A stretch of DNA of 64,000 nucleotides, taken from positions 124,001 to 188,000 of the forward strand of contig JADLCB010000011.1 in assembly GCA_020847375.1 (NCBI GenBank). The letters are read 5' to 3'. Within the stretch, counting starts at the first letter, position 1, and each line of letters starts with the position of its first letter. This document shows positions 33,873 through 55,700 of this stretch, in pieces. Both the position numbers and the translations under genes were made by a program. Under the pieces are notes generated by a model. It saw only the letters and a list, made by a program, of their open reading frames with translations. It had not been told where the DNA came from and searched no databases. This DNA is from Phycisphaerales bacterium. Lineage in GTDB: Bacteria; Planctomycetota; Phycisphaerae; Tepidisphaerales; Tepidisphaeraceae.

Positions 33873-33903
33873 AAAGTTAATCCAAACCGCATGAAAATGA
33901 GTC

Positions 33904-33952
33904 AGTTACTTGATTTATTAACTAAATATACGTACTATACCGCCACTGTCAA
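33904..33952 (-). promoter_or_regulatory. lacI promoter and operator site
   Basis: On the minus strand: TTGACA (33947-33952), 16-bp spacer, TATATT (33925-33930), then after 11 bp TCAAGTAACT (33904-33913). The same three elements with the same spacing recur at 45086-45135 (minus) and 45274-45322 (plus). The operator lies around +5 to +15 of the expected transcript. Confidence 0.7.
33910..33938 (+). promoter_or_regulatory. divergent promoter of the AGE-GH141 unit
   Basis: TTGATT (33910-33915), 17-bp spacer, TACTAT (33933-33938) on the plus strand. The -35 box overlaps the lacI operator, so a single bound repressor could shut both directions. Confidence 0.5.
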
Positions 33953-34026
33953 GAATAAAAAATAAAAAGAGAGCAATTATATTATCGGAAATTGCTTGGA
34001 GGTGAGTGGGAAGGTTAGTGAAGCCT

Positions 34027-35229: not shown

Positions 35230-35274
35230 TCGCCAGGCGTCCGCCAGTGAACATGATTATCAGGGAAACACACA

Positions 35275-37344: not shown

Positions 37345-37347
37345 TCC

Positions 37348-39246
37348 TCAGGGCAACGTGTTGCTCGGTTGGCGCAATTGAGCCAGAAATGCTTCTTCGT
37401 TGCATCCACGCTTACGGGCTGCTGCAATCAGTCGTTCGGCTTCTTCCACGTGGCATTGCTTGAGCAGACATACCGCTGCAAGCACAACAACCGGTGTGGT
37501 AATCTCCATCCCCCCAGCCAGGTGGCGCTGCAGCTCATGCCTCACCCGGAAAACCGCCCGGCATGATTCATCATATGGCCGGTTGGTCAAAAGGCTGACA
37601 TAGCGTGTGGCGCGGTCGTTCAGTTTTTTGTTGCTGGGAACCACCCAGGTCATGACATTGCCGTAAACGCGTCCCAGCAGGCACATCGTGACGGTGGACG
37701 CAGCATTCATGAACATCTTGAAGCAAAGGTGTTCATGAATATTGAGCAGGCTGTTGCAGGTATCGGGGATCACCAACCGCAGGACAATCATGTCATTCAG
37801 GCTGTTCAACCATGAATCAGCCGCTGCGAGCTGGTGTTGCGTGCCCATTGCGAAAATGGCCAGTTTGGCACCACATTGCCTGGCCTTGGTGATCGTGGTT
37901 GTGTAGCGGTCAGCCTGAGCAGCAGCGTCGTGTAGTTCCTGTCCGCATAAAAAGAGGATCAAACCATCGTGATGATCCCGCAGGCGTGTGTTCAAGCCCG
38001 CAAGGGTGATATCAAAACGCAGAATTTCCCTGAGTGTCAGCTTCGGCAGTGACGGTGGTCGGATTCCCGCCGGCAGCATTGTTGCTATTTCTTCAAGGCT
38101 CCAGTCAAGACCGATCGGATCGCGCCCGAGCAACCTAGTCCACGCTTGCACGTTGGGCTGCTGGGGTGTCACAACATAAGCCCAGGAAGGCTCGGCATCA
38201 GGATCATCATGCTTGGCAAAGGGGGGTACGGAAAACGTTGGTGCCCGCTCGGTGGTGTCGGTCAGAAGATCAAGTGAATAATGATCCGCCGCATAGGTTA
38301 TAAAACCATGCGATTGGTAAATCGCACGTTCCAGAGCGACCATTTGGCTGAGGCTGCCGATATTGTCCAGCCTTGTGAACGCCCCGTTTAATACTTCCAA
38401 TTCAGACAGCCGCGCCAAACCTCCCACGGGGGATGATGTCGGCACCTGGGCATCGGCGAAGAGTCGGCCTAGTGCTTCTTCCATGGCAGCGCCGACAATC
38501 GCAAATTCCGACGAGGTTGCCTGCATCCGGGTGGATCCTGTAATCGCCATTGGGCCGGTCGCCAGGCATATCCTGCGAATCTGCTCGCATTCAAGCACTT
38601 GGCGGCAACGCTGGAATCGATACAGCACCTCATCGGGATTGTTGTAGACAAACCATGTTTTTGCCCCTTCTGAAACGCCTGCCCACGCCGCCCCGATCAC
38701 AAAGCTGGTCTCGCCGCCTTCGGTAATGGCAACCACCAGATCATGGGATGTCAGGCCGGCATCGCGCATCTGACGCTGCCCGAATTCTGCGAAATCTTCG
38801 TAACCCTCCACCGATTTGATCAAGGCGTGGTCGCCGCCGGACATGATGCTGCGTGTTGCATCCGCATAAGCCGCCAAAGCCTTGAAGCTGTCGGGCGATT
38901 GTTCCGACAGTTGCTTAAAAAACTTGCGCCAGATTGAATCAAGAAGAATCGACAACCGTCCGGTGGATCCACAGCCAACGAAAAAGATCCTCCCCTTGTT
39001 GACCAGTGTCTGATACATCTCCCCGGCCAGTCGGGCTGGCGCGTCCGAACGTATGATCGGCGTCAGGGCCTTGAGCATGGCTGTGTCAACCGACAGTAGC
39101 TGCGACAGCGCCTCGGATGGATTTCCGGCTGCAGTAGCACTCAGGTCAACTGTCAGTGGGTGTGACTGTTCAGTGACAAGACAGCCAAGGTGAAATTCCG
39201 TTTCGTATTTGATGAAATGCGATGCTTGTTCGTCTGGATTTGACAT
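37348..39246 (-). CDS. double-SIS protein of the MurQ/GCKR type
   Basis: 632 residues, about twice the size of MurQ (N-acetylmuramic acid 6-phosphate etherase). The first half has the family pattern: GRIFFVGCGSTGRLSILLDS, VVAITEGGETSFVIGAA and ITGSTRMQATSSEFAIVGAA. The second half (about 360-600) is a further SIS-like domain (LILFLCGQELHDAAAQ, CNSLLNIHEHLCFKMFMN). This layout is that of the glucokinase regulatory protein rather than of bacterial MurQ. SIS domains bind phosphosugars, so it may be an isomerase, etherase or a sensor of the pathway. GAGGAA before the ATG at 39246. Last gene of the 45.1-kb minus-strand run; converges with the GH141-like gene, 3 bp apart. Confidence 0.8.
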   Translation of the reverse strand: MSNPDEQASHFIKYETEFHLGCLVTEQSHPLTVDLSATAAGNPSEALSQLLSVDTAMLKALTPIIRSDAPARLAGEMYQTLVNKGRIFFVGCGSTGRLSILLDSIWRKFFKQLSEQSPDSFKALAAYADATRSIMSGGDHALIKSVEGYEDFAEFGQRQMRDAGLTSHDLVVAITEGGETSFVIGAAWAGVSEGAKTWFVYNNPDEVLYRFQRCRQVLECEQIRRICLATGPMAITGSTRMQATSSEFAIVGAAMEEALGRLFADAQVPTSSPVGGLARLSELEVLNGAFTRLDNIGSLSQMVALERAIYQSHGFITYAADHYSLDLLTDTTERAPTFSVPPFAKHDDPDAEPSWAYVVTPQQPNVQAWTRLLGRDPIGLDWSLEEIATMLPAGIRPPSLPKLTLREILRFDITLAGLNTRLRDHHDGLILFLCGQELHDAAAQADRYTTTITKARQCGAKLAIFAMGTQHQLAAADSWLNSLNDMIVLRLVIPDTCNSLLNIHEHLCFKMFMNAASTVTMCLLGRVYGNVMTWVVPSNKKLNDRATRYVSLLTNRPYDESCRAVFRVRHELQRHLAGGMEITTPVVVLAAVCLLKQCHVEEAERLIAAARKRGCNEEAFLAQLRQPSNTLP

Positions 39247-39283
39247 TGTGTTCCTCAAGGTTGGAGATTGAGTTCAGGTCAAT

Positions 39284-40333
39284 TCATCCACCGCGCAGTA
39301 GTTCCTCGCCCGTTTGAGCCACCTGCCAGACGTGCTTATAAAGATCAATTGGCAACGGGCCAGCCCGATAGGCGGCCAGGCAATCGTTCCATTGCTCAAG
39401 CCCGGATGGCCCCACGACGACATAATCCACCTGTGGCATTGATAGTAGAAATCGCAAGGCGATCTGGGATAACGTCATGCCAGCTTCGGCGGCGATGGCA
39501 GCAACGTGCTGGGCGCGCTGAATGATGATTCGTTCCTGCTTCACCAGTTGACCGGTTGCAATCTGGCGAACACCGATCAGATTCTGGTCTGTTGGCGCGG
39601 TTGAAAGCTGCTGAACGTATTGCTCATAGCCGCTCCCCAGAAGCCCCATCTCAAATGGACTGGCTGCCCAGATCCGCGCCTTCATCCTCCGGCACAGCGG
39701 AACCAGATCGCTTACACCCTGAAGCGTCACGGCATTGATACGCTGAAAAGTCATCACGTAATCGACGACTTGTTTCCCCAGCCACCGCTGTTGTTGCCCA
39801 AAACCACCGCCACCCATTCCTATTGCTGCGATTCGTCCTTCATCCCGAAGTGCCAGCAGCGTATCCAAACATTCGGCCTCTGCGTCGGGGCGACAATTCT
39901 GAGGTTCATGCACCGAAAGCAGGTTGACAGGCCGGCCAAAGCGTTGTTCGCTGCGGAGCAACATGTTGCCAATGAACTGGCGGCTGAAATCAACAATCGC
40001 CCGGCCTCGTTCAATCCCACATTTGGTCGCCAGCACTGGATCAGGCCCCTGCCAATTCATCAGCGCCGCACCAACCACCTTTTCGGCATCACCATAGAGG
40101 GGGGCACAATCGGTTAACAAAAAACCATCCGCCCAGGCCTGTTGCAGCATGGTGACCGCCTCCTGCAAGCAATTGGTCTCAATGGCACACCAGCACTGCG
40201 ATGTTCCCAGCGCCATGCGTGGAACAGCAGCCAGCCCAGCAGCAGGGGGGTGATGGGCAAAGAATGCCTCCCGTGTCAGAGGTCCTTCAACGGGAAGATT
40301 CAATGAAAACGATGAAAAGGTTGTCTGAGACAT
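39284..40333 (-). CDS. aldo/keto reductase
   Basis: 349 residues, NAD(P)H-dependent TIM-barrel oxidoreductase. The catalytic tetrad is present: Asp75 and Tyr80 (FLLTDCAPLYG), Lys104 (LATKCG) and His142 (SVHEPQ). GRIAAIGMGGGG and YVVVGPSGLEQ follow the usual pattern. The subgroup resembles L-fucose/galactose dehydrogenase-type reductases, but I cannot name the substrate. It lies between the enolase-superfamily and double-SIS genes, 15 bp behind the former, in a minus-strand operon; an oxidised sugar produced by it could feed the dehydratase. Confidence 0.9.
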   Translation of the reverse strand: MSQTTFSSFSLNLPVEGPLTREAFFAHHPPAAGLAAVPRMALGTSQCWCAIETNCLQEAVTMLQQAWADGFLLTDCAPLYGDAEKVVGAALMNWQGPDPVLATKCGIERGRAIVDFSRQFIGNMLLRSEQRFGRPVNLLSVHEPQNCRPDAEAECLDTLLALRDEGRIAAIGMGGGGFGQQQRWLGKQVVDYVMTFQRINAVTLQGVSDLVPLCRRMKARIWAASPFEMGLLGSGYEQYVQQLSTAPTDQNLIGVRQIATGQLVKQERIIIQRAQHVAAIAAEAGMTLSQIALRFLLSMPQVDYVVVGPSGLEQWNDCLAAYRAGPLPIDLYKHVWQVAQTGEELLRGG

Positions 40334-40348
40334 GACTCTTGCGCGACG

Positions 40349-41455
40349 TTAGACAATCGCCACCGCCATTTTTTCCAGGTTGGCCCAGTCAGGATTCAGC
40401 CCCATTCCCGGCTCCATCGGCACTTGTAAAATCCCGTCAATAATAGGCAAGTCAGGCAGGTTTTTCAGTCCCCGGATCTGCGCTTCATCGATCACAAGCT
40501 GTTCGTAATAATCATTGTTGACAATCGCAGCACAAAGCTGGGCATTGCCCCATCCCAAGCCGTGCACCTGCGCCCTCATGCCGAATGACTCCGCCAGATG
40601 CGCTGTTTTCATCGCGCCGGTGATACCCCCTTTATAGCCGACACCGGTGCGCATCATGTCCAGGGCGCGATTTTCGATCCAAGTGGCTGCGTTCCAGTGG
40701 CATCCATCGGAGGTCTCGGCTGCCAGTACCGGAATTTCCAGATCGTGACACAACTTGGAATAGCTGACCAGATCAAACTCGCGCATTGGTTCTTCATACC
40801 AGAGATAATTCAGATCCTCTAAAATGCGACCAAACCGCAACGCTGTCACAAAGTCCCAGCCAGCCGAGCCATCGAACATCAGGTCGGCCTCGTCGCCCAC
40901 CCACTTGCGTAAATTGGCTGCCAGTTTCGCATCCTCTTTGGCATCGCCCCATGCGTGCAACTTAAAAGCGGTGAACCCAACGTCTGCGCACAGTTTGATG
41001 TGCTTCTCGTACTCCTGCATCGTCGGCCAGGTAACGGTCGATGCATACGCGGGCACGGGTCGTCCGTGTCCACCGATCAACTGATGGATGGGCAGCCCTG
41101 CCCGGCGCGACTTGATATCCCACAACGCCTGATCAAAAAGCCCCAGATGACGAATATGCAATTCCTCAATCCGGTCAATCTCCCACACTTCGTGCCAGAG
41201 CGCTTCGGTCATCAATGGGTCGCGCCCGATCAATGTTTTCAAACGCCGCCGAACCAGGCTGGCAACGGTTTGTCCATCATTGGCTCGAACGCAACCATCA
41301 ATTCCTTCGTCGGTCTGAACCCGCAAAATCGCGGAATAAGACGGTTCCCCCGGCGGTGTTCCGTCTCCATCGCCCGCCAAACCTCGACGCCAGGCGTATT
41401 GTGGAACTGCAGCGGGATGTTCCAGGATGTAACAATTAATGTCGGTAATTTTCAT
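40349..41455 (-). CDS. enolase-superfamily sugar-acid dehydratase (mandelate racemase/muconate lactonising)
   Basis: 368 residues from the ATG at 41455. Capping domain 1-125, then a TIM barrel. Active-site residues line up with the mandelate racemase subgroup: Lys165-x-His167 (FKLHAWGD), metal ligands Asp195 (LMFDGSAG), Glu221 or Glu222 (WYEEPM) and Glu247 (LAAETS), and a second base His298 (AQVHGLGWGN). This subgroup removes water from aldonic acids or epimerises them. With the aldo/keto reductase next door it suggests a non-phosphorylating route through a sugar acid; that is inference. No clear ribosome binding site at the ATG. Cytoplasmic. Confidence 0.88.
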   Translation of the reverse strand: MKITDINCYILEHPAAVPQYAWRRGLAGDGDGTPPGEPSYSAILRVQTDEGIDGCVRANDGQTVASLVRRRLKTLIGRDPLMTEALWHEVWEIDRIEELHIRHLGLFDQALWDIKSRRAGLPIHQLIGGHGRPVPAYASTVTWPTMQEYEKHIKLCADVGFTAFKLHAWGDAKEDAKLAANLRKWVGDEADLMFDGSAGWDFVTALRFGRILEDLNYLWYEEPMREFDLVSYSKLCHDLEIPVLAAETSDGCHWNAATWIENRALDMMRTGVGYKGGITGAMKTAHLAESFGMRAQVHGLGWGNAQLCAAIVNNDYYEQLVIDEAQIRGLKNLPDLPIIDGILQVPMEPGMGLNPDWANLEKMAVAIV

Positions 41456-41552
41456 GGCATGACTGTTGAAACCAAACGCACCGGCCGAAATACACGAGCG
41501 GCCTGTCCGCACGGTAGTGTTCCGGCTGAAATTTCCAAAACCAGCATCCCGT

Positions 41553-43220
41553 TTACCGGGCCAGATCTTTGCCGCTCCACCCTTTGCCGGCGGCGGGGCT
41601 GTCTGGCTTGAGACGAAAATCCATCGTGTCCGGGTTCATGAACTGTGGATCGCCAACCTTGGCGCCTTGGGCGTACCCAAGGTCATTGGCGGACTTGAGT
41701 CCGCTTGGATTACGCAAGTCATGAACGGAGCCATCGATCACATACCCACCGGTTGTGAGCGACAACAGAATGGTTTTCCCCGGCTTTTGTGCGTAGAAAT
41801 TATCCCGGACAACATTCCCGGATGAATCCTTGCCGGTGAAGACAACCATATCGATCAGTGAGGCCGACTCGTTCCAGATCGGGCCGCCCATAACATTGTT
41901 CACGACACGGTTGCCCACCAGCGTGTTGCCCCAATCGGGCTGAGGCCGGGGCATCCCATGCAGGACAATGTTGTACCGGTTGCCATAACAGGTATTGTTC
42001 TCGACGATTGCATCATTGGAACCGGCGATGTAAATCCCCTGCGTGTCGTTCTCAATGACACCGTTGTTGCGAATGAGGATGCCGTAGGTGTCCCCTTCTT
42101 CTTTGATACTAATCTCATTCATGATTCCGGCGCCAAAATTGTGCGCGACAAAGTTGTCCTCGACACGGTTGTTGCCAAGATCGCCGTCGAACCATATGCC
42201 CGTTGCAAGATTATCCGTGACGTGGCAGCGGCGGACTGTGACGCTGCGGACGCCGGGGATCAACTTCATGCCGCCGGCCATCCAGGATCGGTCAAATCGG
42301 CGGTAATTGTTGTGCGTGATATTCAAATCCTCCAGCACAACATTCTGCGGCGGTGTGCCGGCGTACTTGTGGACGCCCGAGTCCGGCTTAAAGGAATCGT
42401 AAGGCTTCCAATTTCCGCTCACAGCGACGCCCACCAGACCGTTGTAGGACATGTCGCAGCGGCGGACGACCGAGTCCCTGAAAACGATCGCCAGCCCGCC
42501 GCCGTCTCCGTATTTCATGGCGCAATCTTCAATGGTCCAATCGACGCCAAGAACAACCGTTACAAGTCCGGTCAGCTTTTCGGCGGCGCTTCCGTTGCTG
42601 TGCATGAAGCCCAGGTTACGAACCACGCCGTGCGAAATGCCGTTGGCCAACAGGAGCTGGCCTGGAACAATTGACGCTTCCATGACATGGCCATTGGGAT
42701 CGGATCGATCCGGCAACATGCAGTAGAGCGTCTTGGTGTTCTGGTCGTAAAAAAAAGAGCCGGGATACAAATCTCCCAGATCTTTACCCACGATCAGGAG
42801 CTGTGTTTTCCCGGTGCTTTGCATGTGCGCGTGCCAGATGTTCTGCTCGCCGATCTGCTGAAGCGACTGGCCATCGACAAATAACTGCTGGCTGTTGATT
42901 GTCCAGCCGCTAACCTTCCAGACATTGGGTTGGGTTTCCTGCCAGTTCTCCACCAGCTTCGACCCTTTCAGAATTGTCTTCCCAGCTCCGGCGCCTTCGA
43001 TGATCAGCGGTTGGCCCGGCGAGCCGCCATGCGTCACGTTAACGGTTTTATCGAGGCGATAGATTCCAGCCGCCAGGCGCACCGTATCTCCCGGACCTGC
43101 CTTGTCCATCGCCTCCTGCAGCGCATTGGAATCCGCGCCGGCCGGAACATCGATGATTCTTCCAAAGGCCGGAGAAATAAGGGCGAAAGTGAAAAATACG
43201 ACCAGTAGACACCGCATCAT
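41553..43220 (-). CDS. secreted right-handed beta-helix protein, paralogue C
   Basis: 555 residues; AAGGAA before the ATG at 43220. Signal peptide (about 1-20, VVFFTFALISPAFG), start region IIDVPAGADSNALQEAMDKA, PGDTVRLAAGIYRLD, then a beta-helix with VRRCHVTDNLATGIWFDG and AIVENNTCYGNRYNIVLHG. Its middle (QSTGKTQLLIVGKDLGDL) resembles paralogue B, whereas its residues ~24-122 are nearly identical to paralogue D. It follows D by 46 bp and precedes the dehydratase by 97 bp. Ends in FRLKPDSPAAGKGW. Function as for A: polysaccharide lyase, hydrolase or binder; catalytic residues not assignable by eye. Confidence 0.85.
   Translation of the reverse strand: MMRCLLVVFFTFALISPAFGRIIDVPAGADSNALQEAMDKAGPGDTVRLAAGIYRLDKTVNVTHGGSPGQPLIIEGAGAGKTILKGSKLVENWQETQPNVWKVSGWTINSQQLFVDGQSLQQIGEQNIWHAHMQSTGKTQLLIVGKDLGDLYPGSFFYDQNTKTLYCMLPDRSDPNGHVMEASIVPGQLLLANGISHGVVRNLGFMHSNGSAAEKLTGLVTVVLGVDWTIEDCAMKYGDGGGLAIVFRDSVVRRCDMSYNGLVGVAVSGNWKPYDSFKPDSGVHKYAGTPPQNVVLEDLNITHNNYRRFDRSWMAGGMKLIPGVRSVTVRRCHVTDNLATGIWFDGDLGNNRVEDNFVAHNFGAGIMNEISIKEEGDTYGILIRNNGVIENDTQGIYIAGSNDAIVENNTCYGNRYNIVLHGMPRPQPDWGNTLVGNRVVNNVMGGPIWNESASLIDMVVFTGKDSSGNVVRDNFYAQKPGKTILLSLTTGGYVIDGSVHDLRNPSGLKSANDLGYAQGAKVGDPQFMNPDTMDFRLKPDSPAAGKGWSGKDLAR
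42853..43150. repeat. near-identical tract shared with beta-helix D, in paralogue C
   Basis: 298 bp aligning without gaps to 44579-44876 with about 12 mismatches counted by eye (about 96% identity). It encodes residues ~24-122 of both proteins. Outside this tract the two genes are clearly less alike. Confidence 0.85.
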
Positions 43221-43266: not shown

Positions 43267-44946
43267 TCACCGACTTGCATTCTGCTCGTTCCACCCCATG
43301 CCCGCCGCCGGGCTGTCTGGTTTAAGGCGGAAATCGTCCTGCATCGGATCAACCCACATGGGATCGCCAAGTTTTATACCCTGGGCATAACCCATGGCCT
43401 GAACCGCCTTGAGTTGTTCAGGGTCGCGCAAATCGCGAATACCTTCCTTGGCCACATAATCGCTGACGCTCGGAAGCGTCATCAGGTGGGTTGTCTTGGA
43501 ATTATCCGCATAGAAGTTGTTGTCAACCGTGTTGTCAAATACATCCTTGCCGGCAAAGATAATCATATCGACAACAGACACGTAATTGCCCTGCGTTGCG
43601 CCACCAACAATATTGTTCTCGACCCGGTTGTTTTTAAGCGGCAAAATCCAGCCCCAGTCACGCCTGGGCATGCCATGCAGGACGATGTTGTACGCATTGC
43701 CATAACAGGTGTTGTTTTCCACGATCGCATCGGATGAGGCGGCAATATAAATGCCCTGTCCTTTATTTTTGATGGCGCGGTTGTTGCGAACCAGAACGCC
43801 ATATTCATCATCCTCATCCTTATTGCTGATTTCGTAGAAGACCCCGGCGCCGTTGTTGTACGCGGTGAAGTTGTCCAGCACGCGGTTGCTGCCCAGCGCG
43901 CCATCGAACCAGATCCCCGCCCCGTTGTTATGGGTCACATGGCAATTGCGAATGGTGACGGCCTTGATCCCTGGGATCAGCTTCATCCCGCCGCCGCTCC
44001 AGGCCCGATTGAAATTACGATAATTGTTGTAGCTGAGGTTGGAATCCTCCAAAGTTACGTTGAGCGGTTCAACTCCTGCATATTTATGTTTGTGAACGCC
44101 TGGCGGGACGTTGGGAAACTCCCTCCAGTTCCCGCCCATGCCAACACCCACAACGCCGTTATGGGAAATGTCACAGCGGCGAATGACTGAATCCCGACAG
44201 GACAGTGTCAGCCCACCACCATCACCATGATTCATCACGCAATCTTCAATGGTCCAATTCACACCGAAGACCACGGTCACCAGCCCCGTCAGTTTGTTCT
44301 CAGCCGAAGAATTGTTATGCAGGAAGCCGATCTTCCGCAAGACCACATGCGATACGGGCGACGCCTCCTTGGTCATTAGAAGTGGGCCAGGAACGATCGA
44401 TGCCTCCATGATGCGGCCGTTGGGATCGGAGCGATCCGGCAGCATGCAGTACAGACTCTGCGTATCAGTGTCATAAAAAAATGATCCCGGAACCAGATCG
44501 TCCAGCCCTTTACCCACTGGAGGCAATATCGGTTTGCTGTCGTACTCGCCTGACTTTTGGAAGGCGTTCTGGGCACCAATCTGCTGAAGCGACTGGCCAT
44601 CGACAAATAACTGCTGGCTGTTGATTGTCCAGCCGCTAACCTTCCAGACATTGGGTTGAGTTTCCTGCCAGTTCTCCACCAGCTTCGAGCCTTTCAGAAT
44701 AGTCTTCCCGGCTCCGGCGCCTTCGATGATCAGCGGTTGGCCTGGTGAGCCGCCATGCGTCACATTAACGGTTTTACCGAGGCGATAGATTCCAGCCGCC
44801 AGGCGCACCGTATCTCCCGGACCTGCCTTGTCCATCGCCGCTTGCAGTGCGTTGGAATCCGCGCCGGCCGGAACATTGATGACTTCTCCGAGGGCTGGAG
44901 ACAGAGCGCCCAAGCACACTATTCCCGTCAGCAAGGTCCGTAGCAT
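43267..44946 (-). CDS. secreted right-handed beta-helix protein, paralogue D (mosaic)
   Basis: 559 residues from the ATG at 44946 with AAAGGA before it. Signal peptide like that of paralogue A (MLRTLLTGIVCLGALSPALG). Residues ~24-122 match paralogue C almost exactly, while from IGAQNAFQKSGEYDSK onward the protein follows A again (FQKSGEYESK there), including VRNNRAIKNKGQGIYIAASS and RRDWGWILPLKNNRVENNIV. It is thus an A-type gene carrying a C-type tract. First gene of the minus-strand run controlled from 45.1 kb. Ends in FRLKPDSPAAGMGW. Confidence 0.85.
   Translation of the reverse strand: MLRTLLTGIVCLGALSPALGEVINVPAGADSNALQAAMDKAGPGDTVRLAAGIYRLGKTVNVTHGGSPGQPLIIEGAGAGKTILKGSKLVENWQETQPNVWKVSGWTINSQQLFVDGQSLQQIGAQNAFQKSGEYDSKPILPPVGKGLDDLVPGSFFYDTDTQSLYCMLPDRSDPNGRIMEASIVPGPLLMTKEASPVSHVVLRKIGFLHNNSSAENKLTGLVTVVFGVNWTIEDCVMNHGDGGGLTLSCRDSVIRRCDISHNGVVGVGMGGNWREFPNVPPGVHKHKYAGVEPLNVTLEDSNLSYNNYRNFNRAWSGGGMKLIPGIKAVTIRNCHVTHNNGAGIWFDGALGSNRVLDNFTAYNNGAGVFYEISNKDEDDEYGVLVRNNRAIKNKGQGIYIAASSDAIVENNTCYGNAYNIVLHGMPRRDWGWILPLKNNRVENNIVGGATQGNYVSVVDMIIFAGKDVFDNTVDNNFYADNSKTTHLMTLPSVSDYVAKEGIRDLRDPEQLKAVQAMGYAQGIKLGDPMWVDPMQDDFRLKPDSPAAGMGWNEQNASR
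44579..44876. repeat. near-identical tract shared with beta-helix C, in paralogue D
   Basis: Partner of 42853-43150 at a constant offset of 1726 bp. Both ends coincide with a change in which paralogue gene D resembles most, as expected for gene conversion or unequal recombination. Confidence 0.85.
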
Positions 44947-45085
44947 CGCAAAATCCTTTCGTATTGAGAGATATTGACTCGTGGTGCTTACGCCGGATTC
45001 TCTGCATACCACCAGCAGGAACACTCCGCCGGTAGCCCTATTAACTGAAACGTATCACGTCAGTTTCAAAAATGCCCACAAATCT

Positions 45086-45339: not shown

Positions 45340-46119
45340 ATGGCGTGCAACCCAAACTATATGGCAGTGTTTTCACCTGATCGCGATGCCTTACTGATCG
45401 ATATTGACGGCACTCTGACGGACTGGATTGGTCAGCCGCCGGTCGAAGGACGTGGTCTGTTGCTGGGGCAAAGCCTTTTGTGGCAGATGCGCGAATTTGC
45501 GGCGCAACGAAATGTGATGGACTCAGCTGAAGCCGAGCGACGAATTCGTGATGTCCTGCAAACCGTTCGCTGGTGGCACTGGAGTGATTTTTTGCGTGCG
45601 TTGGATCTGGAAGGCTACGCATTCTGGCAATTTGCTTATGAGCGAGAATCCCATTATCTCGGCGCCATCGAGGGCGGACTGATATCGGTCTTCGACCGCC
45701 TGCATCAGGCTGGTTATCGCATGTTCATCACCAGCAACAACCCAAACACCGGTATTTTGCACAAGCTGCGTCTGGCGGGGCTGGCTGAGATTTACGGTTC
45801 GCACTATTTCCTTCAGTATTTCAGCCCCTGTGATTTGCATTACATGAAACAGGATCCCGAATTCTGGCGGCGTGTTCTGACACATAGTGGTTTGTCAGCC
45901 CGAACGACGATCGTTATTGGGGACTCATGGGCCGATGATATTCTGGCGCCGCAAGAGGCTGGCATTGGCCGACGAATTCATCTGAATAGCGCTGGCCACG
46001 ACCTTGCCGAGCACTCCGGCCAGCAGGAAGGCGTCTGGAATGTTTCCAACTGGCAACAGATTACCCGGTTATTACTTCAAGCCGCTCCTGCAACAAAACC
46101 TGCCGTGATCAATCAATAA
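45340..46119 (+). CDS. HAD superfamily phosphatase
   Basis: 259 residues. HAD motif I LLIDIDGTLTDW (nucleophile Asp21, Asp23), motif II FITSNNP, a Lys-containing motif III near MKQDPEFW, and motif IV GDSWADDI. A helical cap (about 45-110) sits between motifs I and II, so this is a C1-cap phosphatase of sugar-phosphate or related small substrates. The ATG at 45340 starts the frame; an ATG at 45361 would remove seven odd residues and is equally possible because neither has a ribosome binding site. First gene of the rightward unit under the 45.3-kb operator. Confidence 0.85.
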   Translation: MACNPNYMAVFSPDRDALLIDIDGTLTDWIGQPPVEGRGLLLGQSLLWQMREFAAQRNVMDSAEAERRIRDVLQTVRWWHWSDFLRALDLEGYAFWQFAYERESHYLGAIEGGLISVFDRLHQAGYRMFITSNNPNTGILHKLRLAGLAEIYGSHYFLQYFSPCDLHYMKQDPEFWRRVLTHSGLSARTTIVIGDSWADDILAPQEAGIGRRIHLNSAGHDLAEHSGQQEGVWNVSNWQQITRLLLQAAPATKPAVINQ

Positions 46120-46153
46120 CGCGCTGCGCGCAAATGTCGCGCAAGAAGGAATC

Positions 46154-48082
46154 ATGCTTGAACTGGCTGGGCGGACCATATTTTTAGGGGGCTTTCACGA
46201 CCATTGGTCGCGTGCTGATGGAGGTAATCCTTCGCTGTTGCTGGCGGCGCTGAACTATTATCACTACGACTTCATTTGTCTGATGGATGGCAACTCCGCT
46301 GATGCGGATGTGCAGCGTGCAGCGGCCGCCTGGAGTAATCGCATAAAAATCTATCTGGGTCGGGAGGAATTTTATGGGTGGGGGCATCTGGTAACGCTTA
46401 CTCCGCGCGCGCCTCAGTTACCGCAGGACGATCCCGACTGGGAACGAGTGCTGAAAAAGACCAAGGCCAATTACGATCTGCTGATGTTGGCGCATCCGTC
46501 TCATCATCGCACCTGGAAGGAGATATTCCTCACCGGAAAAATGGATCGGTTGATCGATGAAGGGTTCATCGACGGAGTGCAGATGCACCCCGACAGCCCG
46601 GAATTGGTCGCTTGGTTTCAAAAGAGAGATCAGGCTGGCAAATTGACACCGATTGTCAGTGGCTGGGATCTCCATCTGGTTAAATCGCTGGAGCATCTGC
46701 CGCCGGTGCTTTACACGCCGCAGCGACCTCCCAACGGACATTACGAGGCCCCCTGCACAACGCGTACTCTGGTTTTTGCTGAACAAAACGAGCTGGCCGA
46801 CATCTGTCATGCTGTGCGCCAAGGGCGGGCGGTCGTGGAGGATTTGCAAACCGGGCGCTTGGTCGGCCCTGCATCATTGGTTCATTTTCTGGAATGCAAC
46901 GGATATCGGGATGCCCTCGCCGCGATGGATGAGGCTCGTGATGCGGTTGAGTTGCAGACCTCAACCGTGTGGACGGGCGGGAAGGTTGCGCAATTCACAA
47001 TTGCCTCGGATCGTGCTGGAACACTCTGCTGGCCGGTCGATTCGTATCAAACGCAAAAGATCGCAACCATGGCGGACGGGAAAGAAATCCGCTGCACCGT
47101 GCCCTTGACGCTGGATCGTGATGAGTACTATCTCCCAGTTGCCTGGCGGGACGACAAGGGGTTTGAGCGCATATGGGCAGTTCAAGTCCAACATCCCATC
47201 CAGTACGATATCGTGCCATGGCTGCGGCAAGATGAAACCGCCATTGCATTCATACCCGGGTTGCCATTGGATGGCGCTTTGCAACTGGATTTCCAAGACG
47301 GGTTTGGCTCGATTCAACAGCGCGTTGCAGGGCGGACATTATTGCCGCTGCCGTCAGGAAGAATATCTTCAGCGCCAATTCACTATAACGCTCGAGTACG
47401 GCTGGACGATGCAACGCAACGATCCGTCAGCGGTTATCTCACCTATATACCTGTTGAACGCTTCACAGGTGACTGGAATAACATCCCTGTGATCGGCGTG
47501 GATCAACCTCGAAATGATGCTGTCGGCGCCTATGGACATTCGCGACCGTGGCCGGGGCCGGAAGTCTTCTCCGCCCGGTTGCAATTTGCCTGGGATGCGC
47601 GGGCGCTGTGGATGCGGGCTGATGTACGCGACGAAATTCATCATCAACGGGGTAGCGGCAATTCTGCGTATGAAGGCGATTGTCTGCAGTTGGCGATTGA
47701 TCCCGTGATGATTCGCCAGGGGACCGTCGGTTATTTTTATTGCTACAACCTCATCTTGAATGACCAAGGGCCGGAGTTGTATCGCGCATTCACCTTCTCC
47801 CAGGATATGGGAAAACCATTTTCACCCTTGCCAGTCGGACAGATACTGGAAAAACGACTGTTGAACGTCACACCGATCGAAAAGGGGTTGCGCTATGAGC
47901 TTCAATTGCCGTGGACGCAATTGGTACCAGCTGAACCAGCCGTCGGCGTGCGTCTGGGCGTCTATTACATCATGTTCAACAACGATGGAGAGGGGCTGCT
48001 CGATACGCTTCACTGGCCTGTTCCAGCCAGGGGAATGTGGATGAAACCAAGGCAGTGGGGCGTTTTAACGCTTATGGATTAG
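46154..48082 (+). CDS. PHP-like metal-dependent domain fused to a CBM9-like domain
   Basis: 642 residues; AAGGA box 3-4 bases before the ATG. The N-terminal ~240 residues look like a PHP-type metal-binding barrel: GGFHDHWSRADGG near the start (His15, His17), DFICLMDGN, LMLAHPSHHRTW and IVSGWDLHLV. The C-terminal ~190 residues (from about 455) read as a CBM9/DOMON-like jelly roll: FSARLQFAWDARALWMRADV and GDCLQLAIDP, ending in WGVLTLMD. No signal peptide, which is unusual for a carbohydrate-binding module. I know of no described enzyme with this pairing, so function is open; a hydrolytic or phosphatase activity on a saccharide is a guess. Between the HAD and oxidoreductase genes. Confidence 0.65.
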   Translation: MLELAGRTIFLGGFHDHWSRADGGNPSLLLAALNYYHYDFICLMDGNSADADVQRAAAAWSNRIKIYLGREEFYGWGHLVTLTPRAPQLPQDDPDWERVLKKTKANYDLLMLAHPSHHRTWKEIFLTGKMDRLIDEGFIDGVQMHPDSPELVAWFQKRDQAGKLTPIVSGWDLHLVKSLEHLPPVLYTPQRPPNGHYEAPCTTRTLVFAEQNELADICHAVRQGRAVVEDLQTGRLVGPASLVHFLECNGYRDALAAMDEARDAVELQTSTVWTGGKVAQFTIASDRAGTLCWPVDSYQTQKIATMADGKEIRCTVPLTLDRDEYYLPVAWRDDKGFERIWAVQVQHPIQYDIVPWLRQDETAIAFIPGLPLDGALQLDFQDGFGSIQQRVAGRTLLPLPSGRISSAPIHYNARVRLDDATQRSVSGYLTYIPVERFTGDWNNIPVIGVDQPRNDAVGAYGHSRPWPGPEVFSARLQFAWDARALWMRADVRDEIHHQRGSGNSAYEGDCLQLAIDPVMIRQGTVGYFYCYNLILNDQGPELYRAFTFSQDMGKPFSPLPVGQILEKRLLNVTPIEKGLRYELQLPWTQLVPAEPAVGVRLGVYYIMFNNDGEGLLDTLHWPVPARGMWMKPRQWGVLTLMD

Positions 48083-48125: not shown

Positions 48126-49262
48126 ATGAGTGATTCAAATCCATCAATCCGTATCGCACTTGTTGGTGCTTCAGGGCGGGGACAGAGTTTCGTCGATAAC
48201 GCGCGCAGTGCGGGCTATACGATGGCAGCCATCTGCGATTGGAATAAGGAACGATTGGCTGAATGCCAGCAAAAGGAGATGGCAGAATCGTATTATGACA
48301 ACTATGAGCAGATGCTCGACCAGGCGAAACTCGACGCCGTTCTGATCTCCACACCCATGCAGTTTCATGCGCCACAGGCGACCCTGGCGCTGCAGCGTGA
48401 TATTCACGTGATCTCCGAAGTGACCGCCGCCGTCTCCATTGATCAGTGCCAGGAGCTGGTTCGTGCAGCCCGTAAATCGAAGGCTGTTTACATGATGGCG
48501 GAAAACTGCAATTACCTGCGGTTCGTGCAGTTCATCAAGGGGCTGGTGACGGCCGGACTGTTCGGAGAACTGTATTACGCACAGGGCGCTTATGTGCATG
48601 ATGTAAAATGGCTCATGGAACTGACCCCGTGGCGGCGTATCTGGCAGAGCGGTGTGCGCGGTGTCACCTACTCCACCCACAGCATGGGGCCAATCCTCGC
48701 CTGGATGGACGATGACCGCGTTCGCCAGGTCTGTTGTGCCGATAGCGGGTCGCACTACAAGGATCCCCGTGGCGAGCCGTATGCTTGCGACACCTCCGTA
48801 TTCCTGGCCCGTACGGTCAAAGGCAGGCTGATTCAAATTCGTGGCGATCTGGTTTCGGATCGACCGAGTTTGCGCTTTAACACCTATCAGCTTCAGGGAA
48901 CCGATGGATGCTTCGAATCTTCGCGCGGCGGCCCGGGGGATCAGGATAAAATCTGGTTGCGTGAAATCAGTCGCAACCGCGACAATTGGCTTGACCTTGA
49001 GACGCTCATGTCGCTCAAGGCCTTCGAGCAATACCTGCCTGATATATGGCGAAATCCCAGCGAAGCTATGACGCGCGCCGGTCATGATGGTACGGATTAT
49101 GCCACATTGGACCGTTTCGCCCGTGTCATTCGCAACGAGATTGCCAATCCGATCGATATCGATTGCGCAATGGATATGACCTTGCCCGGCCTGATCAGCC
49201 AGCAGGCGGTCTCGGGCGATCAGTGGCTGGAAGTGCCAGATTCGCGCCAGTGGACGATCTGA
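48126..49262 (+). CDS. Gfo/Idh/MocA family oxidoreductase
   Basis: 378 residues; GGGAG before the ATG. Rossmann fold at the N-terminus (IRIALVGASGRGQSF, then ICDWNKERLAEC), followed by the substrate domain with GVTYSTHSMGP. Known members oxidise or reduce sugars and inositols with NAD(P). The usual Glu-Lys-Pro motif is altered: residues 98-100 are Glu-Val-Thr (HVISEVTAAVS), so the catalytic lysine is missing; it may act differently or only bind the sugar. Last gene of the rightward unit (43 bp behind the PHP-CBM9 gene). Confidence 0.88.
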   Translation: MSDSNPSIRIALVGASGRGQSFVDNARSAGYTMAAICDWNKERLAECQQKEMAESYYDNYEQMLDQAKLDAVLISTPMQFHAPQATLALQRDIHVISEVTAAVSIDQCQELVRAARKSKAVYMMAENCNYLRFVQFIKGLVTAGLFGELYYAQGAYVHDVKWLMELTPWRRIWQSGVRGVTYSTHSMGPILAWMDDDRVRQVCCADSGSHYKDPRGEPYACDTSVFLARTVKGRLIQIRGDLVSDRPSLRFNTYQLQGTDGCFESSRGGPGDQDKIWLREISRNRDNWLDLETLMSLKAFEQYLPDIWRNPSEAMTRAGHDGTDYATLDRFARVIRNEIANPIDIDCAMDMTLPGLISQQAVSGDQWLEVPDSRQWTI

Positions 49263-49913: not shown

Positions 49914-49966
49914 CAGTGCATATATGAGCATTGCGCTCAAACTGTTTTTTATCAGGAACAATTGAC

Positions 49967-51367
49967 ATGACGAGTTTAAGGTCATGGTGCGCCTTGGCGT
50001 CAATGGCAGCAGCCGGTTGTACGGTTGCGCCGCACTGGCCGGCTCCGGAAGTGGTGGCGTCAAGGTTGACTGGCGTATCAGCGTTGATTGTCATGGACAG
50101 GACGGGCGGATCACTGGATACGCCGGCGCTGATGGAGAACCAGCTTCATCAGGCCGATGCGCTGCGCATGGCATTGACCACCTCGCCGAGCATCCAGGCC
50201 GCGCTGGCGCGGGTGCACCAGGCGTATGCCGAGGCCTATCAACAACGCCTGCTGCCCAATCCGCTGCTGTCAGTGGTACTCAAGTTTCCGATCCATGGCG
50301 GCGCGCCGACCGCCGAACCGGGTATCAGTGCTGATCTGCTGGCGCTATTGCAGAAACCCGGGAAGATCAAGGCGGCAGAGAGTCGCCTGCGTGCGGCCAG
50401 TGCTGAAGCGGTGGTGGTTGTTCTTGATACGCTGGCGCAAGCGCAGGAATGCTATGCCCGGGCGCAATCGCTGGATGCCATGATGCCGGTCCTGCGCCAA
50501 CGCCAACAGTTGACCGAGCGCCTTGCCGATATTGCGCGATCACGACTGACCGCCGGGGAGGGAACCCGTCTGGATGTGACCACACTGGAGGCGCAAAAGA
50601 TCGAACTGGAGGTCGAAATTGCCGAGCGCGAGCTTGAACGGCAGGAGGGGCGGCTGGAATTGGCGCGGTTGATCGGCCAACCAAGCGGCACGATTGAATG
50701 GCAGCTCGACAGTTGGAACGCGATGAATGCTGAGGACACCATGGTGCAGGCGTGGATACAGGCTGGCCTTGATCATCGCCCGGAAATAACAGCCAGTATA
50801 TGGGAACTCAGGGCGCTGGGGGTGGAGTTTGCTCAGGCACGCTGGGATGGGTTTGAAGCAATGGAAGTCGGCGCGGCGGGAGAGGGGACTGTTAAATCTG
50901 GCGCCCGGGACTGGGCAATCGGGCCAGCCCTGACCGTGCCTCTGCCACTGTTTGACTGGGGACAGGCCCGGCGTGATTTGGTCGGCGCACGCCGATTGGA
51001 AGCGGCACACCTGCTCAACGATAAGCGCCGGCAGATCGTCGAGGAGATCCGCCGCGCTCATGGGGCATATCGCGCAGCCGTCGATGCGCATCAACGTGTC
51101 AGCCAGGAATTGATCCCCTTGCTGCAGCAGCGCCGCAATGAGGCGGACTCACAATATCGGGCGGGTCAGAGTGACATTATTTCACTCATTCTGGCTGACC
51201 AGGATTTGCAGGCTGCGCAGATAAGGCGGATTGAATTGGAGTGTCGCACCGCCATATCACGGGCGCGGCTGCATCGGGCCGTTGGCGGGTCAGGCGTAGC
51301 GGTACCCAAACCCGCAACGCAACCGGCACCAGCCGTAACTATTCAACAAAATAATGAGGGAATCTAG
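49967..51367 (+). CDS. czcC: outer-membrane efflux channel, TolC family (CzcC-like)
   Basis: 466 residues from the ATG at 49967, which has AGGAA 9 bases before it. A lipoprotein signal (MAAAGC, Cys18) anchors it to the outer membrane. Two OEP repeats form the long helical barrel, with coiled-coil stretches (ALARVHQAYAEAYQQRLLPN; RLDVTTLEAQKIELEVEIAE) and the PLFDWGQARRDLVGARR segment in the second half. The gene is followed by adaptor and pump genes in the usual C-B-A order, 2 bp before the adaptor start. The pump type points to divalent metals. Confidence 0.92.
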   Translation: MTSLRSWCALASMAAAGCTVAPHWPAPEVVASRLTGVSALIVMDRTGGSLDTPALMENQLHQADALRMALTTSPSIQAALARVHQAYAEAYQQRLLPNPLLSVVLKFPIHGGAPTAEPGISADLLALLQKPGKIKAAESRLRAASAEAVVVVLDTLAQAQECYARAQSLDAMMPVLRQRQQLTERLADIARSRLTAGEGTRLDVTTLEAQKIELEVEIAERELERQEGRLELARLIGQPSGTIEWQLDSWNAMNAEDTMVQAWIQAGLDHRPEITASIWELRALGVEFAQARWDGFEAMEVGAAGEGTVKSGARDWAIGPALTVPLPLFDWGQARRDLVGARRLEAAHLLNDKRRQIVEEIRRAHGAYRAAVDAHQRVSQELIPLLQQRRNEADSQYRAGQSDIISLILADQDLQAAQIRRIELECRTAISRARLHRAVGGSGVAVPKPATQPAPAVTIQQNNEGI

Positions 51368-51369
51368 TC

Positions 51370-52689
51370 ATGAAAAAAGAGAGATGGATTATCGTTGTCA
51401 TACTGCTGGTGTCGCTGGGACTGCTCGCTGGCTGTGAGCAAAGGAATCTTGCTGCAACGATCGACAAAAACGGCAAACATGATGCTGACGATGAGCACGA
51501 TCACGATGAAAAACATGCCCATGCCCATGGCGCACAAGAACCGGCCCACGATGATGACGCCCACGATGCAGAGATTCAACTCAGCTCCGAAGGGGTGAAA
51601 AAGGCTGGCCTGCAGATTGAGACCGTTGGCCGACACAGACTTGTGGAGGCTATCCTGGCTCCGGCGCGGGTAGCGTTTAACGCCGAGAGCATGGCACATG
51701 TTGGCTCACCGGTGTCTGGTCGAATTTCTGAGATCAAAGTCAGGATTGGCGACAAGGTGGAAAAAGGCGACCCGCTGTTGATCGTGCAAAGTCCTGATCT
51801 GGCGGAAGCGCAAAACGATTATCTGCTCAAACGCATGGCTGCCGAGGCTGCCGGGCCGGTGGCCGAGCTGGCCAAGCTCGCCCATGAGCGCGCCAAAACG
51901 CTCCATCTTGAAAGTCAGGGTATCGCATTGACCGAAGTGCAAAAGCGCGAAGCTGAATATCAAACGGCCTTAGGCGCGCACTTGGCAGCCCAGGCGCAGG
52001 CCACCGCAGCTGCCAATCGATTGCAAATGTACGGAATGAATCAACAAGCGTTGCAAACTCTGGAGCAATCGAGGGAAATTGCGCCATACTACATCATTCA
52101 CGCGCCAATCAGCGGGCAGGTGATTCAGCACCAAGTGACCTTGGGCGAGCTGGTCAACCCTGACCGTCAGGCGCTGCTTGTGCTGGCGGATATGAGCACA
52201 TTGTGGGTATTGGCTGACGTGCCTGAGTCGCGCATGAATAAGGTGGCCCTGGGAGCCAAGGCCCGGGTCAGTGTTCTGGCACTTCCGGGCAAATCTCTCG
52301 ATGGTACGGTCAGCTTCATCGCCGCGGCACTGGACCACAACACCCGCACCATCTCCGTGCGTATCGAAATCAAAGCAAACGATCAAAGGTTAAGTCCGGG
52401 GATGTTCGCACAGGCGTTAATCGTCGAAGCCGGCGGAGAAGAAAATCATGAACCGGTACTGGCCATTCCTGAACAAGCCACGCAACTGATCGCTGGTGAA
52501 CACGTCGTTTTCGTCCCGGTGGAAGGTGAGGAAAACACATTCGCCATACGCCCGGTTGAGGTCGGGCCGGCGGTCGGAAATATGTTGCCGATCATTTCGG
52601 GGCTTGATGAAGGCGAGCACGTTGTGACCGCTGGCAGTTTTATTCTCAAGGCGGAACACGGCAAGGGCACCGCCGGACACGAGCACTAA
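51370..52689 (+). CDS. czcB: heavy-metal RND adaptor (CzcB-like) with His/Asp-rich segment
   Basis: 439 residues, lipoprotein signal with Cys22 (SLGLLAGC). Residues ~36-66 are a His/Asp/Glu-rich stretch (HDADDEHDHDEKHAHAHG) able to bind zinc-like ions. Then lipoyl halves (VGSPVSGRISEIKVRIGDKV and IIHAPISGQVIQHQVTLGEL) around a helical hairpin (about 150-235), and a barrel and membrane-proximal domain. A further His-rich C-terminal end (KGTAGHEH). It overlaps nothing and follows the channel gene by 2 bp. It ferries metal or the channel contact to the pump next door. Confidence 0.94.
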   Translation: MKKERWIIVVILLVSLGLLAGCEQRNLAATIDKNGKHDADDEHDHDEKHAHAHGAQEPAHDDDAHDAEIQLSSEGVKKAGLQIETVGRHRLVEAILAPARVAFNAESMAHVGSPVSGRISEIKVRIGDKVEKGDPLLIVQSPDLAEAQNDYLLKRMAAEAAGPVAELAKLAHERAKTLHLESQGIALTEVQKREAEYQTALGAHLAAQAQATAAANRLQMYGMNQQALQTLEQSREIAPYYIIHAPISGQVIQHQVTLGELVNPDRQALLVLADMSTLWVLADVPESRMNKVALGAKARVSVLALPGKSLDGTVSFIAAALDHNTRTISVRIEIKANDQRLSPGMFAQALIVEAGGEENHEPVLAIPEQATQLIAGEHVVFVPVEGEENTFAIRPVEVGPAVGNMLPIISGLDEGEHVVTAGSFILKAEHGKGTAGHEH

Positions 52690-52707
52690 TTCAAGGAACC
52701 GCAACTC

Positions 52708-55700
52708 ATGCTTGAAGCGATTTTGCGATTTTCAGTTCAACACCGCTGGCTGGTTCTGCTGGGGGCAATCGTGGTGGTGGTTGTCGGGGCGTTCTCGCTG
52801 CGCAATCTGACCATCGACGCCGTACCTGATATCACCAACAATCAGGTGCAGATCAACACATTGTTTCCGGCACTTTCACCGATCGAGGTGGAGAAGCAGA
52901 TCACCTTCACCATTGAAACAGCGCTGACGGGCATTCCTGGGCTGGAATATACGCGATCCTTGTCACGCAACGGTTTTTCGCAGGTGACAGCGGTTTTTCA
53001 TGACAATGTGGATATCTATTTTGCGCGGCAGCAGGTGCTGGAACGATTAAGTCAGGCGCGCGAGAATCTACCGCCCGGCGCCGAGCCACAGATGGGCGCC
53101 ATTACAACCGGGCTGGGCGAAATCTATGTCTGGACGGTGGAATTTACTGATCCTCACGGCAGGGGCACGCCTGCCGCCGATGGTCAGGCAGGTTGGCAAA
53201 GTGATGGCAGCTATCTCACCCCGGAAGGTCAGCAGTTGACGACGGATCTGGAGCGTATCGCCTACTTGCGCGAAGTTCAGGACTGGATTATCCGCCCCCA
53301 GATCAAAGGTGTGGCGGGCGTGGCGGGTATCGACGCGATTGGAGGGTATGTCAAACAGTATCACGTCCAGCCTGATCCAATGAAACTGGTCAGCTATGGG
53401 TTGACATTCCATCACATCATCGAGGCCCTGGAAAAAAACAATACCAGCACCGGTGCCGGTTACATCGAACACAAGGGCGAGTCATACCTTGTTCGCGCTA
53501 CCGGGCGCATTTTCAACAAGAAACAGATTGATGACATTGTGGTCGGTCAATACCGGGGAACGCCCATCCGGGTGCGGGACGTGGCGACGGTCGGAATCGG
53601 GCGCGAGCTGCGCACCGGATCAGCCAGCGAAAACGGCGAAGAAGTCGTGATCGGCACAGCCATGATGCTCATCAAGGCCAACAGCCGCCAGGTCGCCAGT
53701 GACGTTGATGCCCGGATGGCCGAGGTCAATAAGACGCTGCCGCCAGGGATTCGTACACGAACCGTCCTCAACCGGACACAATTGGTCAATGCAACCATTA
53801 ATACGGTGGAGAAGAATCTGGCCGAGGGTGCGATTCTGGTGATCGTGGTGCTCTTTGCCCTGCTGGGTAATTTCCGGGCGGCGTTCATCACAGCGCTGGC
53901 GATTCCCCTGTCCATGCTGATGACAGCGACTGGAATGGTGCAAAGCCGGATCAGCGGCAATCTCATGAGTCTAGGCGCAATCGACTTCGGTCTGATCGTC
54001 GATGGATCGGTCATCATTGTCGAAAACTGTCTGCGCCGTCTGGCGGAAAAACAACATCAGGCCGGGCGCAGGCTTACACTGGCTGAACGACTGGACGAAG
54101 TTCTGGCCGCCAGCAAGGAGATGATCAAGCCTTCGGTTTTTGGTCAGGCGATCATCATTATCGTCTATCTGCCCATCCTGACACTCACCGGCGTGGAGGG
54201 CAAAATGTTCACGCCCATGGCGATTACCGTGGTTTTTGCGCTGGTGGCCGCCTTCATCCTGTCACTCACGTTTATTCCGGCGATGGTGGCTCTGGGGATC
54301 ACCGGCAAGGTCAAGGAGAAGGAAAATGTGCTCGTGCAGGCGATCAAGCGGGCCTATGCGCCGACGCTGCGCTGGGCGGTTCGCCTGCGCTACGTGACCG
54401 TGGGCGCGGGTGTGTTTGCCTTTGCGCTGTCACTGCTGGTTTTCATGCAACTGGGTCAGGAGTTCATCCCTACGCTGGATGAGGAGAACATCGCCATGCA
54501 GGCGATCCGCATTCCCAGTACAAGCCTGAGTCAATCCACCCAGATGCAGTTCGAGGTTGAAAAGACGCTGAGCCAGTTTCCCGAAGTTGCCATTGTCTAT
54601 TCCAAGACGGGAACGGCGGAAATGGCGGCTGATCCAATGCCGCCCAGCATCTCCGACACTTTTGTTATTCTCAAACCGCAGCACGACTGGCCCAATCCGC
54701 GTGGGACCAAACAGCAATTGCTGGAACGTATGGAAAAAGCCGTGGCCTATCTGCCGGGCAACAGCTACGAATGGACCCAGCCAATCCAGATGCGGTTCAA
54801 TGAGTTGATCGCCGGCATTCGCAGCGATGTGGCTGTGAAACTCTATGGCGATGATTTCGCCAAGCTCACGCCGACCGCCGACGCCATTGCACAGGTGCTG
54901 CAAAGCATCGCAGGAGCAGCCGATGTAAAGGTTGAACAAACCGAAGGTCTGCCGGTGATGAACGTGGAGATCGACCCAGCCATAATCGCCCGTTACGGCT
55001 TGAACGTGGCTGACGTGCAGGACGTGATTGCCGTTGCCATCGGCGGACGCCAGGCCGGGCTTGTCTTTGAAGGCGATCGGCGGTTTGATCTGGTGGTTCG
55101 TTTGCCCGAGGAGATTCGTGGTGATATTGGCGTGCTCCAGCATTTGCCCATTCCGCTGCCACAGGCAGAGGGTGAGTCTGCCCAACTCGCCGTAGCGGGG
55201 CACGTGGCAGGCATTGATGAAAACGACACTCGAAGGATTGGATTTGTCCCGCTGGGTTCTGTTGCCAGGATCGAGGTCGTTGAAGGCACGAACCAGATCA
55301 GCCGCGAAAATGGCAAGCGGCGCGTGGTCGTTCAAGCCAACGTCCGTGGCCGCGATATCGGCTCGTTCGTGGCCGAGGCTCAACAGAAGCTCGCCAGCCA
55401 AGTCGCGATTCCGGCGGGATATTGGATTGACTGGGGCGGGCAGTTTGAAAATCTGATGGCTGCCCGTCAACGACTGCTCATCGTGGTACCCATCTGCTTT
55501 TTCATGATCTTCCTGCTGCTGTTCAGCACGTTTAATTCGGTCAAGCACGCCATGATCGTCTTCACGGGTGTCCCGCTGGCGCTTACCGGTGGCATCCTTG
55601 CCCTATGGTTGCGGGCAATGCCATTCTCCATTTCCGCTGGCATCGGTTTTATCGCGTTATCGGGAGTGGCCGTGCTTAATGGGCTGGTCATGATTACGTT

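Follow-up and report, generated by a model that had tools for sequence, protein, structure and literature searches.

PHP domains are familiar chiefly as three-metal phosphoesterases and polymerase proofreaders. What reaction is to be expected when such a domain lacks part of its metal site and is joined, in a cytoplasmic-looking protein, to a carbohydrate-binding module? The question is raised by a gene at positions 46154-48082 of a 64,000-nucleotide stretch of DNA from a Phycisphaerales bacterium (contig JADLCB010000011.1, positions 124,001 to 188,000; hereafter the window). An earlier note, made from the sequence alone, had described a PHP-like domain fused to a CBM9-like domain and had supposed a new type of hydrolase. 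What is new is a conserved PHP variant which has lost gamma-metal ligands and to which a CBM9 domain has been added; a further PHP-CBM9 fusion was found, and gamma-less PHP domains as such occur elsewhere. As to function, the best reading is a cytoplasmic two-metal hydrolase which, in series with a HAD phosphatase, would act on pieces of imported glycan or on their substituents, and we give it an even chance. The gene and its domains are laid out as follows.

46143..46150, + strand: AAGAAGGA, a ribosome-binding-like sequence ahead of the ATG (read from the sequence)
46154..48082, + strand: PHP-Ig-CBM9 protein, complete gene, 642 amino acids, ATG start (open reading frame, family matches, relatives)
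46154..46951, + strand: PHP barrel domain, residues 1-266 (AlphaFold2, Foldseek, VIA)
46955..47449, + strand: Ig/FnIII-like beta domains, about residues 268-432 (VIA on a low-confidence model)
47441..48079, + strand: CBM9 domain, residues 430-642, with the putative aromatic clamp Y506 and W629 (Pfam, VIA, alignment to 1I82)

The order PHP barrel, Ig/FnIII-like domains and CBM9 domain within one real protein is confirmed, and the reading frame is exactly the one reported earlier. At E <= 1, the sole NCBIfam match is the CehA/McbA metallohydrolase model NF038032 (residues 13-234, E 1.6e-11; 44.2 bits, under the curated cut-off of 80 bits), and the sole Pfam match is CBM9_1 (PF06452, residues 471-641, E 1.5e-5; 25.4 bits against a cut-off of 23.4). 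Ten members of the family were found in nine genomes, from Planctomycetota, a Lentisphaerae metagenome-assembled genome (MAG) and its phylum, and one Cohnella; seven of them are complete and can be aligned over their full length. NF038032 is matched by all five close full-length members (E <= 0.01) and by three of the four distant ones. The CBM9 Pfam match likewise recurs in the five close members (E <= 0.1) and in six of the seven complete ones, with 27.7 bits in the distant member L085; another distant member, L087, stops short of this region. Because both matches occur in all five close full-length members, the PHP and CBM9 assignments are unlikely to be due to chance.

The fold of the N-terminal half is predicted to be a PHP barrel. 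The AlphaFold2 (AF2) model of residues 1-266, built from four sequences, reached a predicted local distance difference test score (pLDDT) of 82.1 and a predicted template modelling score of 0.85. Its top Foldseek matches are 3E38 (E 1.5e-9), 2ANU and RNase AM, while VIA placed 3E38 at Z 16.9 (224 aligned residues, 3.6 Å, 18% identity) and 2ANU at Z 15.7. The top 32 of the best 50 VIA matches are PHP-domain proteins, identified by title, with PsfC, EndoQ and the bacterial DNA polymerases also counted as such. The best match, 3E38 (BVU_3505 of Bacteroides vulgatus), has a second domain according to its title, but the correspondence is limited to residues 1-260 of the window protein. Searches of PDB sequences with the protein and its profiles gave no PHP match; the flavivirus envelope proteins (E 0.013 and above) and the glycerol dehydrogenase (0.041) that did match we regard as chance matches.

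As the earlier note had held, an export signal is not evident by eye in the 642-residue protein, whose first beta strand begins right at the N-terminus. The relatives whose start is seen begin in the same way, and by eye none of the nine N-termini seen is signal-peptide-like. We infer that the protein is cytoplasmic.

The metal site carries the main finding. Nine ligand positions serve three metals in PHP domains, in the order H H D/H H E H C/H D/N H (PMC3666897). In the phosphodiesterases Sb-PDE and No-PDE, the alpha metal is held by H61, H63 and D260 and the beta metal by H203 and H142, with E135 and a water molecule bridging the two, and the gamma metal acts as the leaving group's Lewis acid (PMC11656708). 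The corresponding positions of the window protein, placed by alignment, are these.

46196..46204, + strand: motif I, H15-x-H17, alpha-metal ligands
46283..46291, + strand: M44-D45-G46, the canonical (T/S)-D-His motif with the gamma-metal His replaced by Gly
46364..46387, + strand: E71 (bridging alpha and beta) to H78 (beta ligand)
46493..46495, + strand: H114, beta ligand
46667..46675, + strand: D172, an alpha ligand, and H174, the retained canonical gamma ligand

Ligands were counted in an alignment of the ten members (n = 9 at each position, the member without the region being left out). Six positions are invariant in all nine: H15, E71, H78, H114, D172 and H174. Position 17 is His in six members and Gln in three, and W18, adjoining motif I, is also invariant. 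The gamma site is different. Residue 46, the fourth of the nine canonical positions, is Gly, Lys, Gln, Thr or Val and never His (0/9), and residue 22, the third, is Asp in three members including the window protein, Gly in three and a gap in three. Neither the nine-ligand pattern nor the full alpha, beta and gamma set of Sb-PDE is found in the family. By alignment, the alpha/beta ligands are retained; the gamma set is incomplete, though its last His (H174) is still in place. The site probably binds two metals, the third probably being absent. The earlier note had let its case depend on a predicted barrel with histidine metal ligands; the barrel is predicted and most ligands are there. Of the histidine-rich motifs which it had singled out, FHDHW corresponds to motif I of PHP enzymes (H15, H17) and the AHP of the other belongs to motif III, LAHP (H114), but the remaining His of AHPSHH are not conserved.

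To judge how unusual this loss is, the family was set beside 30 comparators (32 open reading frames from 31 of 35 loci, once the duplicate L049 and the family member L067 had been removed). Of these, 29 have the gamma His, a count from a biased set: the first loci were filtered for the (T/S)-(D/E)-His motif and the second were found with a profile made from the first. The exception is L062. Of the four loci missed by the comparator profile, L051 and L079 were read by eye and L069 and L075 were left out. L051, the strongest CehA/McbA match found (272 bits), also lacks the gamma His; both it and L062 miss the last His as well. Loss of the gamma site is therefore not unique to the PHP-Ig-CBM9 family, and the CehA/McbA group has gamma-less PHP domains in further lineages. 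The PHP-type protein of L079 has H-x-Q in motif I (by eye) instead of H-x-H, as do three distant family members.

The full-length AF2 model, from three sequences, is poor (pLDDT 57). In VIA, its residues 430-642 match the CBM9 structures 7NWN (Z 11.1) and 1I82 (Z 10.6), and residues 427-641 a putative carbohydrate-binding protein, 4JPQ (Z 11.0); together with the Pfam score this bears out the CBM9-like C-terminal part which the earlier note had seen. For residues 268-432 the matches are Ig/FnIII-type domains (Z about 7-9), an arrangement that is common; they are weak because the model is poor. A profile of the C-terminal domain matched 1I82 at E 0.0014 over the whole sequence, with no single significant stretch. 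The sugar clamp of TmCBM9-2 consists of Trp71 and Trp175; a Tyr/Trp clamp in CBM9.3, and a preference for binding reducing ends, are reported as well (PMC8280721). The weak profile alignment to 1I82 places Trp71 and Trp175 at Y506 and W629; in the alignment of the family, position 506 is Tyr in 4/8 members, Phe in 3/8 and Met in 1/8, and position 629 is Trp in 7/8 and Phe in 1/8. Sugar binding by this domain is plausible.

The relatives were gathered from genome samples which overlap, and the best candidates of each genome alone were scored. A pattern scan of GTDB yielded three relatives among 21 matched stretches, namely the proteins of the Lentisphaerae MAG (44% identity) and of Cohnella silvisoli (39%), and a fragment, N-terminal only, from a Planctomycetota MAG. 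The genome of the window holds a second copy (56% identity), the class sample gave a member in genome G479 (47%), and the phylum sample of the Lentisphaerae MAG gave four distant members, two of them cut short, with 23-26% identity to the window protein in those of sufficient length. The Planctomycetota fragment, a relative of the PHP domain at L034 (10001-10315), has a frame which ends after about 105 residues, from a truncated gene or a contig mis-join; its MAG appears to be genome G410, of the same class as the window.

With the protein as query, 63 of 392 phylum genomes gave a match at E <= 0.001; those listed from genomes other than the window's cover the CBM9 side, except for two on the PHP side (G102, G324). 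Profile A2 found three matches in 298 class genomes (own, G410, G479), two in 35 genomes of the G479 family (G479, G410) and one in 26 genomes of the window's family (own). In 240 genomes of the class of the Lentisphaerae member L032 it found L032 alone, in 387 genomes of that phylum L032 and the four new members, and in 344 genomes of the Cohnella family Cohnella alone. Profile A10 matched nine of 259 genomes of the Cohnella phylum, in the CBM9 part only besides Cohnella's full-length match. A search of plasmids and viral contigs gave no relative. The PHP-Ig-CBM9 family looks sparse, though distant members can be missed in these samples.

In a midpoint-rooted FastTree tree, from which the L034 fragment and the four distant members were left out, the five close full-length members form one clade (support 1.0) on its own long branch, and the tree does not place this clade. 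Within it, the Lentisphaerae and Cohnella members are sisters (0.98), which suggests transfer between phyla.

The genes on either side of the PHP-CBM9 gene run in the same direction.

45340..46119, + strand: HAD phosphatase-like gene, directly upstream with a gap of 34 bp (Pfam PF00702, E 1.4e-13)
48126..49262, + strand: Gfo/Idh/MocA oxidoreductase with a GH109-type C-terminal domain, 43 bp downstream (PF01408, PF21252)

A HAD gene is directly adjacent in five of the ten loci (window, L035, L045, L032, L085). The first four share one orthologous type, 29-61% identical to the window's; the gene overlaps by 4 bases in L045 and is divergent in L032. D21, D23, T25, K170, G194-D195 and D200 are invariant across these four and include the catalytic Asp motif. 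On the family match and this motif, the neighbour is a HAD phosphatase by sequence. The HAD protein of L085 is of the HAD-IIB subclass and is not matched by the profile of the first type, and in Cohnella (L033) a HAD-IIB gene lies about 7 kb upstream, beside a GH29 fucosidase gene. That one protein should have HAD neighbours of two different subclasses suggests that they are functionally linked, and this recurrent partnership suggests a two-enzyme reaction sequence which could be assayed.

Glycoside hydrolase (GH) families score above their Pfam cut-offs near the gene in six of ten loci: GH141_M in the window (35275-37344, 46.1 bits) and at L035; GH95, GH4 and GH123_N at L032; GH29 at L033; GH94 and GH31 at L034; and GH1 at L087. 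A phospholipase-C-like neighbour at L087 (E 0.05) fell under the cut-off and was dropped as too weak. L088 has a glucosamine-6-phosphate isomerase family protein nearby. Judged from the sequence, the genes directly upstream at L033 would code for two permease-like proteins and for a lipoprotein that resembles sugar-binding proteins. GH141, GH95 and GH29, families which contain further activities too, are found in four of ten loci; the presence of GH94, GH31, GH1, GH4 and GH123_N led us to set fucose aside as the sole theme. The former three are counted among fucosidase families (PMC10154630), and fucose-containing substrates are a lead only. PADLOC gave no match, hence no sign of a defence role.

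How might such a protein work? In the mechanism we consider best, the PHP barrel would hold a two-metal alpha/beta centre, bridged by E71 and a water molecule, which generates the nucleophile. The site probably lacks the gamma metal, whose usual part is that of a Lewis acid towards the leaving group; H174, still present, may protonate that group instead. The C-terminal CBM9 domain could hold an oligosaccharide end and so present the substrate; the bond cut would be an ester, a lactone or a similar linkage on an imported oligosaccharide. The adjacent HAD phosphatase might handle the product, or the substrate beforehand. If this is true, a lineage with the nucleophile metal pair but but with leaving-group-metal ligands lost would make the role of the gamma metal directly testable, and an uncharacterised cytoplasmic step in complex glycan breakdown would be indicated.

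Several observations weigh against this mechanism. No biochemistry was found for any member of the family. Only one of five AF2 models of the PHP domain was good (82.1), the other four scoring 54.7-67.7 from the same four input sequences. L086 and L088 have no Pfam CBM9 match though aligned over that region. Asp22, kept in three of nine members including the window protein, leaves room for a weakly held third metal. In five of ten loci no adjacent HAD gene is seen, some flanks being cut or untyped: besides Cohnella, these are L034, L086 (flanks partly typed), and L087 and L088 (cut by contig ends). L045, L085, L086 and L088 have no GH family above the cut-off among their typed neighbours. The word 'imported' is drawn from sequence resemblance, and the binding-protein-like lipoprotein of Cohnella has no Pfam match.

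The choice between a two-metal ester hydrolase and a phosphodiesterase, its main rival, hinges on whether a missing gamma metal fits phosphate chemistry. As a phosphodiesterase, the PHP domain would open a glycan-linked or sugar phosphodiester to a monoester from which the HAD enzyme removes the phosphate, in keeping with a HAD neighbour that recurs in two non-orthologous subclasses. We judge this possible but on the doubtful side, since two ligands of the leaving-group metal are affected (His46 is lost in 9/9 members, Asp22 in 6/9), whereas Sb-PDE and No-PDE retain all nine (PMC11656708). The carbaryl hydrolases CehA and McbA, which give the nearest family its name, are esterase-type carbamate hydrolases with essential His residues (PMC8292978), and this, with the best-scoring CehA/McbA match (L051) being gamma-less, leans towards non-phosphate esters.

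The loss or variability of two gamma ligands could also mark a dead PHP domain which serves as a scaffold, like that of E. coli Pol III, with the CBM9 domain as a cytoplasmic glycan sensor. Variant PHP domains in which ligands and activity have been lost are known, and in E. coli Pol III five of nine ligands are replaced (PMC3666897). In our family, however, six of nine positions never vary, even between members whose identity is down to 23%; a decayed site would not be expected to be so conserved, and we consider this explanation quite unlikely. A further alternative, an ordinary PHP phosphatase with three metals and some other residue in the gamma site, would draw on D22 and H174 of the window protein and on the invariant W18 beside motif I; yet position 46 varies between Gly, Lys, Gln, Thr and Val and position 22 between Asp, Gly and a gap, no shared replacement ligand is seen, and we regard it as very improbable. 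The two-metal ester hydrolase can be extended to a bolder proposal, which as a whole we find unlikely: a distinct cytoplasmic PHP class in which H174 as the acid would replace the gamma metal, so that the scaffold of a phosphoesterase would have become a two-metal enzyme which cleaves esters or lactones linked to carbohydrates, with its own glycan-end-binding module and interchangeable HAD phosphatases, acting on imported, possibly fucose-containing oligosaccharides and spread by transfer between Planctomycetota, Lentisphaerae and Cohnella.

Comparison with known systems sets these proposals in context. 3E38 is described as carrying a typical trinuclear centre (PMC11656708), unlike the gamma-broken site of the window protein. 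Sb-PDE and No-PDE have the PHP family and the alpha/beta ligand set in common with it, but their nine ligands hold a trinuclear zinc site (PMC11656708), and Sb-PDE has a putative signal peptide (PMC5460133). From the CehA/McbA group, whose CehA and McbA were compared by description only, the window protein is set apart by its score under the cut-off and by the added Ig-like and CBM9 domains, and the five close members by a long branch of their own. 1I82 (CBM9 of Thermotoga maritima Xyn10A) and 7NWN (CBM9.3 of C. kristjanssonii) are xylanase modules, whereas the CBM9 domain of the window protein sits in a PHP protein with no export signal evident. A protein of the same-phylum genome G324 (L055, 1399-2955) has a PHP domain followed by CBM9_1 (25.5 bits, above the cut-off); it belongs to a different clade and keeps the gamma-site Asp and His, and hence a nine-ligand site, which makes it a convenient counterpart to the gamma-less family. 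The PHP-CBM9 fusion is thus not unique, and the 'new type' of the earlier note holds in part only; that note had mentioned neither the lost gamma ligands nor the recurring HAD gene. Among the best 8 of 46 matching open-licence papers on CBM9, PHP domains, histidinol phosphatase and metallohydrolases, none deals with CBM9, and nothing was found in the open-licence literature on PHP domains with polysaccharide utilization and carbohydrate binding.

Elsewhere in the window, a glycan-type cluster at 32808-41512 comprises a LacI regulator, an N-acetylglucosamine 2-epimerase family protein, the GH141-like protein, a GKRP-type SIS protein, an aldo/keto reductase and a mandelate racemase/enolase-type protein. 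On the - strand, at 26758-28491, 29401-31047, 41553-43220 and 43267-45024, lie four right-handed beta-helix paralogues whose N-termini look signal-like by eye. The last two share 64% identity overall and are almost the same over a long stretch close to the N-terminus, which suggests that they were duplicated recently or underwent gene conversion. At 49931-55989, an outer membrane efflux protein, a CusB/HlyD adaptor with a His-rich N-terminus and an AcrB-family pump follow consecutively as a resistance-nodulation-division (RND) efflux operon.
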